This document shows, piece after piece, positions 52,301 to 64,000 of a stretch of DNA of 64,000 bases. Made by a program: the position numbers and the translations under genes. Below the pieces are notes generated by a model that was not told where the DNA came from, did no database searches, and was given only the letters and a program-made list of their open reading frames with translations. How positions within the stretch are numbered: position 1 is the first letter of the stretch; each line of letters begins with the position of its first letter. The DNA comes from Moraxella boevrei DSM 14165 (GTDB lineage Bacteria > Pseudomonadota > Gammaproteobacteria > Pseudomonadales > Moraxellaceae): contig NZ_KB903772.1 in the NCBI RefSeq assembly GCF_000379845.1, positions 24,955 through 88,954 of the forward strand. The letters are read 5' to 3'.

Positions 52301-53328
52301 ATGGGCAACACCACCAAAGCCCAAATGCAACAATTGGGCTTACGACCAACGATTAAGCTATACGAGCCTGAAAACATTATTAACTGGCGTGTAGAAAATA
52401 TTAACAATCAAGCCAAATTAACCCTTGTGGTTATCCGTGAAAGCTATATCAAAAAAGATGACGGTTTTAAAGCTGAATATGGCGAGCAATTAACCGTGTT
52501 ACGCTTACAAAACGGTGTTGCGACTAGCGAAATTTACCAAAAAGACGGTATTTGGCGGTCAATGGCAAAGGCGGTGATTACCGATAGCACAGGCAAGGCA
52601 TTTGACACTTTGCCCTTTACCTTTTTTGGGGCGGACGATAATGATGAAACGCTTGACGATGCCCCACTTTATGATTTGGCGGTGTTAAATTTAGCCCATT
52701 ATCGCAATAGTGCCGACTATGAAGAAAGTAATTTTATCGCAGGACAACCGACTTTATTTATTACAGGTTTGACCGAAAGTTGGTATCACGATGTCATAAA
52801 AGACGGTAACCCCATTCGTTTAGGGTCAAGAAGTGCCAATTTATTGGGTAGTGGCTCAAATGCGTTTTTATTGCAGGCGACTGCCAATAGCGGTTTGCGT
52901 GAAGCCATGACGGATAAAAAAGAACAAATGATTGCACTTGGTGCAAAACTTGTTGAACCAAATAATATCAATAAAACCGCCACACAAGCCCAATCGGACA
53001 ATGCTAGCGAAGCAGTATTTTATCCACATTGGCAAACAATCTATCCGATGCGTACAGTTTGGCATTAAATTTTTGTGCAAGATTTACAGGCGTGGAGCAA
53101 AATTGTGTATTTACCTTAAATACTCGCTTTATGACCAATAAAATGACCGCCGATGAACGCAGGCAGTTAATTAGCGAATGGCAATCAGGGGCGATTAGTT
53201 TTGCAGAAATGCGAGACAAGTTAATTAAAGATGAAATTGCTAGCGTAGAAGATGTTGATGAAATTCGTGCAACGATTGAAAGCGAATTGCAGGGATATGA
53301 TTTAAATGAAAAACTTAATCAATCTTGA
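52301..53328 (+). pseudogene. DUF4055 phage portal-like protein, N-truncated and frameshifted
   Basis: The sequence enters a DUF4055 protein in mid-domain (LRPTIKLYEPENIINWRVEN) and continues through LNLAHYRNSADYEESNF. The frame then shifts by -1 near a TTTT run at 53028-53031 (SEAVF to LSTLANNLSDAYSLAL) and finishes at 53328. About half of a normal 450-residue protein, the N-terminal part, is missing, together with the terminase genes expected upstream. Confidence 0.8.
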
Positions 53329-54228
53329 ACGCTTTAAACAATCACTTATCAATGATTTTGGCAAAACTTTAAAAGCGGTTGATGATTATTTGCAAAAGGC
53401 GGTATTTAACCGTGAAGTTAAAAGCCTTAATCAGCGTGAGATTAAACAGATTTTGACAAATGCTGATAAAGAATTGTAATCTTTATTTGCCACTTATATG
53501 GACGGCTTAAAAACAAATTGGCGTGGTTTGTTTTATTATCACTACCAAAAGCAAAGCGATGACGCCTACACACGCTTTAAAAAAAGCTAAACTCGCCAAA
53601 ATCTTTAACCGTCTATGCCGATAAAGTGTTTGCCAAGCCGTTAAATTTGACCGCCAATGTGGGCGTAACATTAGATGAACTGACCAAATCATTTAGTAAG
53701 AATGAGAGTGAACGGCTTATCCGTGCCATTGGTTTTGCTCACATGGACGGTTTAACCAATGATAAATTAATCCAAATGATAAGGGGGTCAAAGGCAAATC
53801 ATTTTAAAGACGGTATTTTGTCCACCACAAGCCGAAACGCCCAAACAATCGCTCGCACAGGCACAGCGATTATGGCAAGTGAAGCTAAACAAGCGTTTAT
53901 TAACCAAAACCGTGATATTATCAAAGGCATAAAGGTAAATGCCAGATTGGATAGAAGAACTTGTTTGGTGGCAGGTACACTTATTGATACACCAACAGGC
54001 AGACGACCCATTGAGCAAATTCAAAAGGGCGAATTGGTTTTTGGTGGCAGTGGCAAGGTACGAGAAGTTACAGCAACGCTTAGAAGTTACAAAAACAGAC
54101 TTTGTAAAGTAACGCTAAGTAACGGTGAAACAATCGTTTGTACGCAAGACCACCGATGGTGGAATGGTAACGAATGGATTGAAGCTAAGGATTTGAAAAT
54201 AGGTGATTTTTTACCAAGAACATTGTAA
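53306..54228 (+). pseudogene. MuF-like head protein N-extein fused to split-intein N half
   Basis: ATG 53306 overlaps the DUF4055 end. The N-terminal part (MKNLINLERFKQSLINDFGK) reads as the helical start of an SPP1 gp7/MuF minor head protein, but is broken by TAA at 53477 and a -1 shift at the A7 run 53579-53585. From there the frame is intact: YADKVFAKPLNLTANVGV through VNARLDRRT, then an 88-residue intein N-fragment starting at Cys113 of the intact segment and ending at TAA 54226. A GTG at 53626 could restart a 200-residue product. Loss of the N-part would harm the head protein but leaves the intein half whole. Confidence 0.85.
53962..54225 (+). other. Split intein N-terminal half (IntN, 88 residues)
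   Basis: Block A begins with the nucleophile Cys1 in CLVAGTLIDTPTGRRPIEQI; block B is GETIVCTQDHRWW with the T-x-x-H catalytic pair. It ends DLKIGDFLPRTL, where continuous inteins would go on to an endonuclease or linker. The 88-residue length equals that of the known gp41-1 IntN. The preceding extein residue is Thr. Confidence 0.9.
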
Positions 54229-54232
54229 AAAA

Positions 54233-54241
54233 TGCTATAAT
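54233..54241 (+). promoter_or_regulatory. Extended -10 promoter for the HNH gene
   Basis: TGCTATAAT, an extended -10, lies 70 bases before the HNH ATG in the gap between IntN stop and the endonuclease gene, so the endonuclease may have its own transcription. No good -35. Confidence 0.45.
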
Positions 54242-54311
54242 AAATAAAACCAATAAGGTGGTGGAACACCCTACTGGCTTCTAACCAAAACTGATAGAGT
54301 GAGTATCAAAA

Positions 54312-55208
54312 ATGGCTAAACAATATTATACCTGTCATACTTGTAACAATCAATTTGTTTCTTACAGCCCTAAGAAATTTTGCGGAATAGACTGTTACAG
54401 AGTCTTTCAAAAAACACCTGAATATAAAACAAACTTTACCGAAGTAAGGACAAAACATAGAACATCTTGTACTAATTGTGGTACAGAAGTCTTAGGTAGG
54501 AAGTCTACCAAACGCAATGGCGAGAAAGCGGATAACAAATTTTGTAATCGTAAATGCTATGATGAATATCGCACAAAATTACAACAACAAGTAGTTGGAC
54601 AATGTCAAAATTGTGGCAATAACTTGTTGCTTGGTAAACACCAAAAGAATGCCAAATTTTGTTGCATAGAGTGCCGACTGATGAGCAAAAGACCAAAACC
54701 GACACATTGCGTTAATTGTGGCGTATGGTTTACCACAATCAAAATCCATAAAAAGAAAGGTGGCGGTGTTAGACTTTCAGGGTGTTCAAGTACAAAAACA
54801 TGTAGTAATGAATGCTTAAATGAATTTTATCGTACTAATGAAGCTAGAAAAGAAAAAATCAGTCAGGCATTTATGGGTAGCAAACACCCCAACTGGCAAG
54901 GTGGTGCAAGTCATACCAAAGTTGATTATAGGGGAAGTAATTGGCAACGCCTTAGGAAGCAAGTAATGAAAAGAGATAACTATACATGTTGTCATTGTGG
55001 CATTACTCAAAAAGAGCAGTTGGCACGTTACGGTCGTGACTTTTCTGTTAATCATATTATCCCATTTCATCAATACGGCAATACTGTAATTGCTAATAAA
55101 CTAAGCAACTTAGAAACGCTTTGTGATAGTTGCCACACTAAGGCGGATTGGAAGTACAGAAAAGAAAATCCGATACAAGGGGTATTAAATTTTGGTAGAA
55201 GTGGTTAA
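54312..55208 (+). CDS. Free-standing HNH homing endonuclease between intein halves
   Basis: A 298-residue protein. The N-terminal 170 residues contain four Cys-rich zinc-finger-like units (CHTCNNQF, CTNCGTEV, CQNCGNNL, CVNCGVWF, each with a second Cys pair). About residue 189 is GSKHPNWQGG, a motif common next to homing HNH domains. The HNH nuclease domain (about 207-283) has CCHCG, NHIIPFH (N247, H248, H253) and LCDSCHTK (C271, C274, H275). Its stop overlaps the next gene's start. Expected to cut intein-free head genes and drive spread of the cassette. Confidence 0.9.
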   Translation: MAKQYYTCHTCNNQFVSYSPKKFCGIDCYRVFQKTPEYKTNFTEVRTKHRTSCTNCGTEVLGRKSTKRNGEKADNKFCNRKCYDEYRTKLQQQVVGQCQNCGNNLLLGKHQKNAKFCCIECRLMSKRPKPTHCVNCGVWFTTIKIHKKKGGGVRLSGCSSTKTCSNECLNEFYRTNEARKEKISQAFMGSKHPNWQGGASHTKVDYRGSNWQRLRKQVMKRDNYTCCHCGITQKEQLARYGRDFSVNHIIPFHQYGNTVIANKLSNLETLCDSCHTKADWKYRKENPIQGVLNFGRSG

Positions 55209-55305
55209 TGTAGAATTTATTGAACTTGATGAATCTGTGGCGGTTTATGATATTGAAATCCCAATAGATAAATCATTTCAATGTGGGGGAGTTGTATTGC
55301 ATAAC
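55192..55305 (+). other. Split intein C-terminal half (IntC, 38 residues)
   Basis: Block F VAVYDIEIPIDKSFQCGG and block G VVLHN, ending in the penultimate His and terminal Asn, followed by +1 Ser at 55306. The usual block F His before Phe is Lys-Ser here. The IELDE segment near the start resembles IEELDE of gp41-1 IntC. Confidence 0.9.
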
Positions 55306-56409
55306 TCCCCCATTTGCCGTCATCTTGACCACCAGTTTATGCCGATAGATAAGGCAAAATATCCGCCCTATCATTTTAATTGTCGGTCTGGTTTTGAGAT
55401 TGTATTTGACGGTTACCAAAGCCCAAAACATAGGGCGAGTGAGTTTGGCGTAACGGAGAATGTCAGTTATTATGAGTGGCTTAAAAAACAAGATAGCGAT
55501 TATCAAGACGGTATTTTAGGTAAAACTCGTGGGCGATTATTCCGTGAAAGTGGCATGAGTGCAGAAAAGTTTAAGCAATTACAGCTAGATAAAAACTTTA
55601 CCCCTTTAACGCTTGATGAGATGAGACAAATTGAGCCTTTCGGGTTTGAAAAGGTGTTTGGTGCTGTGTTAAAATTAGACAATACAAAAGATAGAGTATT
55701 GTCTATGACACGCACCGATTGGGGGGATTTACCCAATACCATTATTGATAGAAAACTTGGCGATGCGACCAGTCATTTGCTTTATGAACAAGCCAAAGCT
55801 GGCGATGTGATTAGTGCTTATGCACTAGCACAAGATTTGGTCAGTGATGAGGCAATTAAAAAATTAAAAGACCTAATTGGCAACAAAGTAGTTGTTTTTG
55901 CCCCTGTTCACGCCGAAGAAAGTACAGGACGAAATATGATACCTGTGGCTGTAGCAACGGTTTTGGCAAAGAAGATTGGTGGACAAGTAGATTTAAATGT
56001 TGTGCAAGCGGTCAAAGTTTCTCGCACAGGGGGCGATGGTTGGCACAGATTGGCAAATCCACCATTTTTTGACGGTAGCATACCAAAGGGTAATTATGTT
56101 ACAATGGTTGATGATACCCAAACACAAGGCGGTACGCTTGCTTCATTTAAGGGTCATATTGAACAAAGCGAGGCAACCGTTATTGGGGCGTATGCCTTGA
56201 CTGGTAAGCAATATTCAGCACAACTACGACTTGACAGCGATACTTTAACCACTTTGAGAGAAAAATATGCAACACTTGAACCATTCTGGCAACAAACATT
56301 CGGCTATGACTTCTCAAAACTTACCGAGTGGGAAGCCAAATTCATCATCAATTCAGGTAAAAGCATTAACGAAGTCCGAGATAGAATCCTTGCGTCAAAG
56401 CAAAATTAA
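55192..56409 (+). CDS. Split-intein C half fused to MuF C-extein and phosphoribosyltransferase-like domain
   Basis: A 405-residue ORF. Start is TTG 55192 (AAGGGG upstream) or GTG 55201; no usable ATG. Residues 1-38 are IntC. From Ser39 the sequence SPICRHLDHQFMPIDKAKYP followed by HFNCRS is the MuF-domain Cys-containing core. Residues about 220-345 look like a phosphoribosyltransferase: APVHAEESTGRNMIP and the PRPP loop VDDTQTQGGT (306-315). The tail (about 350-400) is helical. MuF proteins with C-terminal enzymatic or toxin domains are known; here the domain would be delivered only after trans-splicing. Followed by two terminators. Confidence 0.88.
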   Translation: MVEVVNVEFIELDESVAVYDIEIPIDKSFQCGGVVLHNSPICRHLDHQFMPIDKAKYPPYHFNCRSGFEIVFDGYQSPKHRASEFGVTENVSYYEWLKKQDSDYQDGILGKTRGRLFRESGMSAEKFKQLQLDKNFTPLTLDEMRQIEPFGFEKVFGAVLKLDNTKDRVLSMTRTDWGDLPNTIIDRKLGDATSHLLYEQAKAGDVISAYALAQDLVSDEAIKKLKDLIGNKVVVFAPVHAEESTGRNMIPVAVATVLAKKIGGQVDLNVVQAVKVSRTGGDGWHRLANPPFFDGSIPKGNYVTMVDDTQTQGGTLASFKGHIEQSEATVIGAYALTGKQYSAQLRLDSDTLTTLREKYATLEPFWQQTFGYDFSKLTEWEAKFIINSGKSINEVRDRILASKQN

Positions 56410-56463
56410 CGCCTACAAGCAAATGATTGCAATGTAGTTCACGCTTTAATCTTTAATCCCAAG

Positions 56464-56510
56464 CCCCTTTGCAAGGGGTTTTTTTACGCCCCCATGTTGG
56501 GGCTTTTTTC
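56464..56510 (+). terminator. Two tandem terminator hairpins after the MuF gene
   Basis: CCCCTTTGCAAGGGG followed by seven T, then GCCCCCATGTTGGGGC followed by six T. They separate the fractured MuF locus from the scaffold-capsid genes. Confidence 0.85.
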
Positions 56511-58417: not shown

Positions 58418-58672
58418 CTAATCATAATGATAACGACATGAAATGATAATCAGCGTGTCGTTATCATAAGCGTACACTAGGCGGTTGGTATCATCAATTC
58501 GCCTAGACCAATAGCCTGCCAAATCATGTTTTAACGGTTCAGGCTTGCCAATGCCGTCAAAAGGGGAACGCAAGCAGTCTTTGATTAGGGCATTAATGCG
58601 TTTTAGGGTTTTTTTATCTTGATTTTGCCAGTATAAATAATCATCCCAAGCATTATCTGTCCAACTAATCAT
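58418..58672 (-). CDS. yoeB: Toxin YoeB
   Basis: An 84-residue RelE-superfamily ribosome-dependent mRNA endonuclease. Typical residues: DYLYWQNQDKKTLKRINALI, PEPLKHDLAGYWSRRIDDTN, and the C-terminal ISCRYHYD with the catalytic His-Tyr. Start ATG 58672 overlaps the antitoxin end by 8 bases. Encoded antisense within the phage head operon. Confidence 0.93.
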   Translation of the reverse strand: MISWTDNAWDDYLYWQNQDKKTLKRINALIKDCLRSPFDGIGKPEPLKHDLAGYWSRRIDDTNRLVYAYDNDTLIIISCRYHYD

Positions 58673-58916
58673 CAATTAAATCCCTTTGTATGGTTTTTTG
58701 TTGTTGATATTGGGCAATGCCTTGGCGTAATCGTTTGGCATTGGCGTGACTTGCCAATAAATAATCGGTTTCGTTTAATGCGTTGTAGGTGTCAAGGCTA
58801 ATGACAACAGCACATGATTTACCCCGTTTGATAAGTACAGGGGCGTGATTTTGTTCTACATAATCTAACGCACTTGCCAAGTTTTGGCGAAATTCACTAA
58901 ATCCTAAGACTTGCAT
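58665..58916 (-). CDS. yefM: Antitoxin YefM (Phd/YefM family)
   Basis: An 83-residue DNA-binding antitoxin that neutralises YoeB and autoregulates the pair. The Phd/YefM fold is clear from SEFRQNLASALDYVEQNHAP and VVISLDTYNALNETDYLL. AAAGGAG precedes ATG 58916, and a GTAC palindrome lies just upstream. Confidence 0.93.
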   Translation of the reverse strand: MQVLGFSEFRQNLASALDYVEQNHAPVLIKRGKSCAVVISLDTYNALNETDYLLASHANAKRLRQGIAQYQQQKTIQRDLIDD

Positions 58917-63052: not shown

Positions 63053-63066
63053 TTGGAAAAAAGAAA

Positions 63067-63730
63067 ATGACCGAACAAACTTCACGCCTGAGTATTGTAG
63101 TAGATACCACCAACGCCCAGCAACGACTAGCCCAATTTCGCCAAAGTTTACGCCAAACATCGGACAGTAGCAATCTTGCAGGGCGTGGCATGGGGCAGTT
63201 ATCCACGCAAGCCCAAAATCTAGGCAATAGCCTTGCCATGGGCGTGGGCGGAAAATCTGCCACCGAGCAAGCGTCTGCCCTATTACAACTGGGGCAAGCC
63301 ATGCAATCAGGGGTTCTGCAAGGTGATGAATTTCGCTCACTGGCTGAAAATGCCCCCATTATGCTGGATTTAATTGCCGAAAAACTGGGTAAAACGCGTG
63401 GACAAGTGCGTAAAATGGCAGGTGAAGGCAAAATCACCGCCCAAGTGGTGTACGATAGTTTATCAGGGGCAACGGATAAACTACAAGCCATGTTTGACAA
63501 AATGCCTGTTACCATGAGCCAAGCCTTTGGCGTGGTAAAAAATAACTACAATGTCTTTGTGGATAATTTTATCAATAAAACCACAGGGCTGTCAGGTGCG
63601 GTGGCAAAGGGTTTAATTGGTATTTCTAATCATTTTGAGACCATTGCCAAGGTTGCCATAGCAGGGACTGGGTTGGCATTGGTGGGATTGGCAAGTAAGG
63701 TTACTTTAACCACAACCGCTTTTACTGTAG

Positions 63731-63741
<11 letters not shown>
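63067..63741 (+). pseudogene. Phage tape measure protein, cut by IS3-family insertion
   Basis: ATG 63067 (MTEQTSRLSIVVDTTNAQQR). The N-terminal domain is typical: GQAMQSGVLQGDEFRSLAEN, APIMLDLIAEKLGKTRGQVR, and GKITAQVVYDSLSGATDKLQ. After AFTVV the frame runs into the IS end and stops at 63741. A full tape measure would be several hundred residues longer, so the phage cannot build a normal tail. Confidence 0.85.

Positions 63742-64000
<259 letters not shown>

Follow-up and report, generated by a model that had tools for sequence, protein, structure and literature searches.

A probable split intein with a free-standing HNH endonuclease gene between its halves in the MuF head gene of a Moraxella boevrei prophage and of viral contigs

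Introduction

Natural split inteins are few and are widely used as tools. Among them gp41-1, NrdJ-1 and IMPDH-1, reportedly described in 2009 by Dassa and colleagues, are said to come from fractured genes in which a free-standing endonuclease lies between the two intein halves, and the endonucleases of this founding set are said to be Vsr-like. The gp41-1 intein is split into 88 and 37 residues. Here we describe a similar arrangement in a 64,000-nucleotide stretch of the genome of Moraxella boevrei DSM 14165 (contig NZ_KB903772.1, positions 24,955 to 88,954; hereafter the window), in which the gene for the phage head protein MuF is interrupted by an N-terminal intein half (IntN), an HNH endonuclease gene and a C-terminal intein half (IntC). 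As is reported of gp41-1, NrdJ-1 and IMPDH-1, the halves lie on separate open reading frames (ORFs), a free-standing endonuclease lies between them and the split is at the same position, here 88 + 38 residues; the locus differs from these systems in its extein, MuF, and in its nuclease, an HNH protein with an array of Cys pairs that is also found behind uninterrupted target genes. The likeness had been drawn in a sequence-only reading of the window, made by a model without database searches. It holds for the separate halves and the endonuclease between them, but the nuclease is of the HNH family (PF01844) and not Vsr-like; we take the Vsr-like character to be the feature of a sub-type, the enzyme of Pseudomonas phage MIJ3 also being an HNH protein.

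In MIJ3, according to the accessible part of the report (PMC6892783), the DNA polymerase B carries a split intein whose halves flank an HNH gene, so that this layout is not a new category. The MIJ3 intein differs from that of the window in extein and site, is known from one phage, and in the same part of the report no alternation of settings is mentioned. Inteins in minor head proteins, probably of the same gene family as MuF, have been noted in phages vKMB36, where Salmonella phages are mentioned, and AB09 (PMC11162368, PMC7468147); the accessible portions of these papers do not state that they are split. The sequence-only reading knew of no description in a MuF head protein of a Moraxellaceae prophage. 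That stands for a split intein, no description of which in a MuF gene was found in the open-access literature, covered mostly by title and the start of the abstract, or in the accessible text of PMC7090010, PMC12403621 and PMC3229294; it does not stand for inteins in phage minor head genes as such, which are in print. A further parallel is collaborative homing, in which, from the accessible sections of PMC10448857, group I introns go with free-standing endonucleases. Both arrangements have a free-standing nuclease adjoining its target gene and a self-splicing element in that gene; in collaborative homing the element is an intron, whereas the nuclease family of the window occurs outside the gene as well as within a split intein.

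Results

Two intein halves at one residue pair of MuF

The 88-residue IntN with Cys1 and a T-x-x-H block B, the 38-residue IntC that opens a second ORF and ends in HN, and the intact HNH gene between them, all predicted in the sequence-only reading, were borne out (Table 1). IntN matches Hint_2 (PF13403) above the cut-off (E 2.7e-7), and TIGR01445 (intein_Nterm) below it (E 2.9e-4, 21.7 bits against a cut-off of 24.5), as it does PF14890. When a profile of IntN from six loci of this layout was compared with the PDB, the top match was the gp41-1 split intein (E 5.1e-14). The catalytic set is present, with a nucleophile at position 1, TxxH, a terminal Asn, and Cys, Ser or Thr at +1, and the splicing halves are carried on two separate ORFs. 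Among the six IntC rows the block F/G region is conserved, and all six terminate in N followed by S or C. An AlphaFold model of the N fragment was of middling confidence (mean pLDDT 72), and its best matches were inteins, weakly so (best E 4.5e-4) and with low TM-scores.

The exteins identify the host gene and the point of interruption. On the head morphogenesis family phrog_241 (SPP1 gp7/MuF) the N part reaches profile position 239 (E 3.9e-29) and the C part starts at 239 (E 1.7e-43); TIGR01641 gives E 0.04 on the cut MuF domain, and PF04233, unmatched on the cut ORFs, is listed for intact relatives. Six intact homologues (P0001–P0006), 85–92% identical to the C part of the window, all run uninterrupted through ...LD(R/S)RT-S(P/H)IC... 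and thus align across the predicted RTSPIC junction. Neither outcome that would have spoken against the sequence-only reading was seen: IntN matches intein profiles, IntC only weakly, and the intact MuF proteins show no misalignment at the junction. One of them, P0003, is a Moraxella nasibovis protein with an identical ORF in L080, from a genome of the same family as the window. The DNA flanks of the insertion, searched separately, map to adjacent bases of L080, with none gained or lost; the alignments end 17 bases short of the junction on the N side and 2 bases short on the C side, and the codons for RT-S (L080 2143–2151) decide. The same adjacency was obtained for five other intact loci (L076, L078, L079, L081 and L082), by longer extrapolation. 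The exteins were compared with uninterrupted MuF separately, not joined. The point of insertion is exactly between RT and SPIC of the MuF head gene, as the sequence-only reading had placed it, and the insert of 1344 bases, a multiple of three, brings no duplication.

In phages of Vibrio, Salmonella, Escherichia and Shigella, contiguous MuF inteins were seen at a second site, PPAH(P/A)N/CRS, about 25–28 residues after RT/S; for L005, L007 and L009 this comes from the proteins, for L008 and L010 from a profile. The MuF protein of E. coli phage 26 is without this second-site intein. In the Guernseyvirinae and Vibrio phage proteins examined the intein is contiguous and at the second site, unlike the split RT/S intein of the window. 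No contiguous MuF intein at RT/S was found in a scan of viral contigs with the N halves, which returned 21 loci besides that of the window. A MuF match is lacking in all 21; in 20 of them the frame continues for at least 65 residues beyond IntN, and in the other (L115) it is cut by the contig end. Several of these non-MuF loci resemble terminase genes by eye.

Table 1. Features of the interrupted MuF locus, in window positions
Feature	Positions	Strand	Details and evidence
MuF N-extein, broken in the window copy	53306..53961	+	ends ...ARLDRRT; tblastn of intact P0003, translations, phrog_241
IntN, 88 residues, Cys1, block B CTQDH	53962..54225	+	begins TGT; stop 54226-54228; PF13403, TIGR01445, PF14890, gp41-1 profile match
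Predicted HNH-gene promoter, extended -10-like box TGCTATAAT	54233..54241	+	just 3' of IntN stop
Long leader hairpin (predicted), 15 pairs, 6-base loop	54246..54281	+	listed by the scan as a minus-strand terminator-like site
Small hairpin TGATA/TATCA (predicted), Shine-Dalgarno-like GAGTGAG in loop	54292..54308	+	3 bases 5' of HNH ATG
Intact free-standing HNH endonuclease gene, 298 amino acids, Cys-pair array	54312..55208	+	ATG start; PF01844 E 3.8e-7, above cut-off; phrog_8446 E 2.2e-24; relatives
Shine-Dalgarno-like AAGGGG	55177..55182	+	nine bases 5' of IntC TTG
IntC, 38 residues, ends ...VVLHN	55192..55305	+	TTG 55192 to AAC 55305; +1 residue Ser
MuF C-extein SPICRHLD...	55306..56406	+	stop to 56409; phrog_241 239-609; 90% identical to P0003 residues 218-586
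Portal gene remnant	52340..53325	+	intact-portal residues 143-472, two frames; tblastn of L080 portal, phrog_145

Recurrence of the layout and two settings of the HNH gene

A scan of IMG/VR with an alignment of the HNH protein gave 55 loci (L-numbers), L021 being the window's own; the C-half alignment was too variable to serve as a query for the collection. In all 13 loci with a full-length HNH match (family profile, E < 1e-50) the HNH gene is at MuF. It lies inside the split intein in six (L021, L023, L026, L029, L031 and L032), in the order MuF N part with IntN, HNH, IntC with MuF C part, and 78–93 bases 3' of the stop codon of an uninterrupted MuF gene in seven (L022, L024, L025, L027, L028, L030 and L033). 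L028 is the same stretch as L027 and so entered neither the trees nor the leader tests, L030 is a near relative of L022, and the N side of L026 is cut by the contig end. The remaining 42 loci are weaker matches, mostly to the HNH domain alone; L037 (618–2314) has a weaker relative of the HNH protein, in which stretches of Cys pairs repeat, directly 3' of a weak MuF match. What is new is that the predicted HNH gene of all 13 full-length-match contigs adjoins MuF or lies within it, alternating between these two settings.

In the split loci other than the window the N halves end at position 239 or 240 of phrog_241 (n = 4) and the C halves start at 239 (n = 5). In four of these five loci the insert length is not divisible by three and therefore cannot be a single reading frame. 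The end of the HNH gene and the start of IntC overlap in five of the six split loci, by 17 bases in the window, and this overlap suggests that their translation may be coupled.

These loci bear on the possibility that a contiguous intein with an inserted HNH domain was simply fragmented by mutation in a decaying prophage. The prophage has indeed decayed, with a stop and a frame change in MuF and a truncated portal, and the in-frame length of the window insert is as such an origin would have it. However, the same three-ORF layout with unbroken ORFs is present in five other contigs (L026 being cut by the contig end), four of these have out-of-frame inserts, and the HNH gene begins at an ATG of its own and IntC at a separate start with a Shine-Dalgarno (SD)-like site. 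We regard fragmentation as extremely improbable.

A protein search with the N fragment returned 36 proteins, in 26 of which (the window's own and 25 relatives) IntN stands behind a MuF N-extein; the ten without IntN are nine MuF proteins and one RecA. CTxDH is present in all 26, IntN occupies 88–90 residues at the end of the protein in 25 (96 in P0150), and each of the 25 relatives starts with Met. The IntN rows were picked by a motif that includes Cys1, and no IntN lacking this residue occurs among the 36 proteins.

Alternatively, a homing endonuclease could have split MuF into pieces that act as two chains, the intein halves no longer splicing, much as in a ribonucleotide reductase gene that a homing endonuclease gene divides into two functional chains (PMC10448857, accessible sections). 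That splicing is here a prediction from sequence, and that the intein of L029 closes with SN instead of HN, would both be compatible with such a fate. Halves that had ceased to splice would be expected to lose their splice residues, and retention counts against this alternative: block B keeps its Thr, Asp and His in the window protein as well as in all 25 relatives, and the six IntC rows keep the final N followed by S or C. Two independent chains are in our judgement unlikely.

Movement of the intein and its nuclease

The IntN of the window is 93% identical to that of P0123 and 90% identical to that of P0132, while the corresponding N-exteins (last 105 residues) are only 55% and 38% identical. 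P0122 shows the converse, with an extein 82% and an IntN 61% identical to those of the window, and three unsplit proteins without any intein (P0085, P0086 and P0089) share 96% identity with the window in the N-extein. The element looks mobile because similar IntNs occur in divergent exteins, while 96% identical exteins are without it. In a tree of 30 N-exteins, chosen as 17 split and 13 unsplit rows and including 11 of the 25 database N halves, well-supported branches force at least seven changes between the split and unsplit states; L027 was dropped from this tree because its MuF has no RT-S motif. In the tree of the HNH protein (66 rows, 12 with a known setting) the inside and behind settings interleave, with three forced changes. 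The simplest reading is horizontal movement of both intein and cassette, with more than one change of home by the nuclease.

The element is rare in the sampled host genomes, because only the window's genome (G000) was positive in two scans. Among 348 genomes of the family, scanned with the MuF extein and IntN, G000 alone had a MuF-extein match longer than about 35 residues together with IntN; among 369 genomes drawn from the class, 368 had no HNH match at E <= 1e-15, G000 again being the sole carrier. No close relative of the HNH protein was found among 50,697 phage records. Matches were obtained in 38 of these records, 23 of them from Moraxella phages, and those listed are to the HNH part alone; the two records that span most of the protein belong to one Halorubrum virus (25% identity). 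Matches were also obtained in 36 plasmid records, most of them haloarchaeal judging by the organism name; distant relatives of most of the protein are seen in haloarchaeal viruses and plasmids. An assignment to IscB/OMEGA was rejected: NF040563 scored 28.5 bits against a cut-off of 175 and on the HNH part alone, and the two Rfam matches in 53000–56500 are both below the gathering score, neither being at the leader.

These distributions also speak to the suggestion that the HNH protein serves DNA packaging as a nuclease of the head operon, and is not a homing enzyme, its place at MuF reflecting packaging. HNH proteins that aid phage packaging are known, and at all 13 full-length-match loci the gene stands solely at the head gene MuF. 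Against a packaging role stand the 368 of 369 sampled class genomes in which it was not found at E <= 1e-15, the want of an HNH ORF (at least 100 amino acids) in the examined stretches that flank intact MuF in L076 and L080, its residence inside the intein in six of the 13 settings and the movement of the intein between exteins. A packaging function thus appears improbable.

A shared leader of the HNH gene

In both settings a TATAAT-like box starts 69–85 bases 5' of the HNH ATG; it is present in the ten loci examined (seven exact, three with one mismatch) and, when tested against single-base shuffles in ten of 12 loci (L030 and L031 excluded), gave single p values of 0.001 to 0.10. The box overlaps the IntN stop in three of five split loci (L023, L026 and L029) and follows it in the window and L032. 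The promoter scan of the window did not list it because there is no -35 match. The order of the leader is box, long hairpin, a CUAAYCA-like stretch (by eye), small hairpin and AUG. Hairpin pairs were scored by script, as MAFFT was unable to align the hairpin.

Eleven of 12 loci have the small hairpin, of 4–6 pairs and 3–5 bases 5' of the AUG, and its loop or the loop's edge carries an SD-like sequence (by eye); L031 has none, since the start of its HNH gene overlaps IntN. The stem sequences vary yet pair: TGATA/TATCA, GACT/AGTC, TAATC/GATTA, CGCT/AGCG, ATATCT/AGATAT, TTATCT/AGATAA, CGTT/AACG and GCCT/AGGT (one G-U). Shuffling gave single-locus p values of 0.006 to 0.20 in the 11 loci and 0.33 for L031. 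Combined by Fisher's method, ten loci (L030 and L031 dropped) gave 1.3e-6 by shuffling and 1.7e-4 against genomic background, and 11 loci (L030 dropped) 2.0e-6 and 3.0e-4, combined values that overstate the case because the loci are related. The hairpin statistics are moderate per locus and strong only when combined. Minimum-energy folds of ten leaders had z values of -0.8 to -4.0, three of the ten below -2; the long hairpin of the window is absent from its minimum-energy fold (z -1.06). In phage homing endonucleases, hairpins that mask the ribosome site and a late promoter of the gene's own are reviewed in PMC2988022, in the portion available; by analogy, the leader described here may delay production of the nuclease.

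Other features of the region

The C-terminal region of MuF at about 55945–56211 is phosphoribosyltransferase-like (PF00156, E 0.0037, below the cut-off), and relatives with the same MuF front end in different domains, among them PF11429 (colicin D). Two small minus-strand genes amid the head genes (58418–58916) resemble what we take to be a YefM/YoeB antitoxin-toxin pair. A tape-measure-like frame (63060–64000) seems by eye to be interrupted near 63745 by an apparent insertion sequence, and the contig ends at 88954, the end of the window.

Discussion

We conclude, with a probability of roughly 0.86, that a split intein interrupts the MuF head gene with an HNH endonuclease gene between its halves, that the HNH enzyme likely spreads the unit by homing, and that unbroken relatives of the window copy likely trans-splice. 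What carries this conclusion is found in the sequences themselves: the two halves with their splice residues, the exact point of insertion, the recurrence of the layout, the incongruence of intein and extein, and the residence of the HNH gene at MuF.

Several observations weigh against it. The window copy itself is broken. The sequence-only reading began the MuF gene at 53306 and implied a working gene; there is an ATG there, but the first half is not open, with an in-frame TAA at 53477–53479 and a frame change near 53580 within the N-extein. By tblastn, residues 1–93 of the intact MuF P0003 are in frame 2 and residues 93–222 in frame 1, and the adjoining upstream portal gene is a fragment that also changes frame and has no match to the first 142 residues. 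No full-length N half can be translated from this copy because of the in-frame stop and the frame change, and, with its first MuF half broken, the unit in the window genome is a relic. The C ORF by itself matched no intein family in Pfam or NCBIfam, and a six-row profile of IntC with the start of the C-extein matched solved inteins weakly (best E 1.3e-3); the final pair of the L029 intein is SN, not HN; and in three of the 25 database relatives (P0134–P0136) Cys1 follows RTS instead of RT. The 25 database N halves are known as proteins alone, without view of an HNH gene and IntC behind them, and the database HNH relatives are likewise known without their setting; the sole pair of the two kinds is P0136 (N half) and P0162 (HNH relative), both from contigs of 17038 bases. 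To these are added the rarity of the element in the family and class genomes, the failure of foldseek to match the HNH model to any structure at E 0.001 or below, and the HNH tree, on which clustering of the settings does not reach significance (a count as low came up in 69 and 81 of 500 shuffles), although only 12 rows are labelled.

We infer trans-splicing, site-specific cleavage of intein-less MuF with gene conversion, of which incongruence and patchy distribution are only indirect signs, and a timing of HNH expression set by the promoter of that gene and the hairpins of its leader. IntN and IntC, whether from separate messages or a common one, would come together and join the MuF exteins at RT-S. 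The HNH enzyme would cut the intein-less MuF gene of a co-infecting phage, and repair would then copy the unit into the cut gene.

A broader proposal, to which we give even odds, is that a MuF-dedicated homing cassette, consisting of the -10 box, the long hairpin, the SD sequence in a hairpin loop and the HNH gene, switches between a place behind intact MuF and a place within a mini-intein that sits at a single conserved residue pair of MuF. Such a cassette would parallel collaborative homing at the protein level and would show the origin of split inteins as it happens: a free-standing nuclease would invade a mini-intein in its own target, and the gene, broken thereby, would survive in two parts by trans-splicing.

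The locus would add a gp41-1-like split-intein family with many orthologues. Since one nuclease family occurs within as well as behind a single target gene, the origin of split inteins becomes testable by comparison and by cutting assays. If the reading given here is true, these phages would have a head protein that depends on protein trans-splicing.

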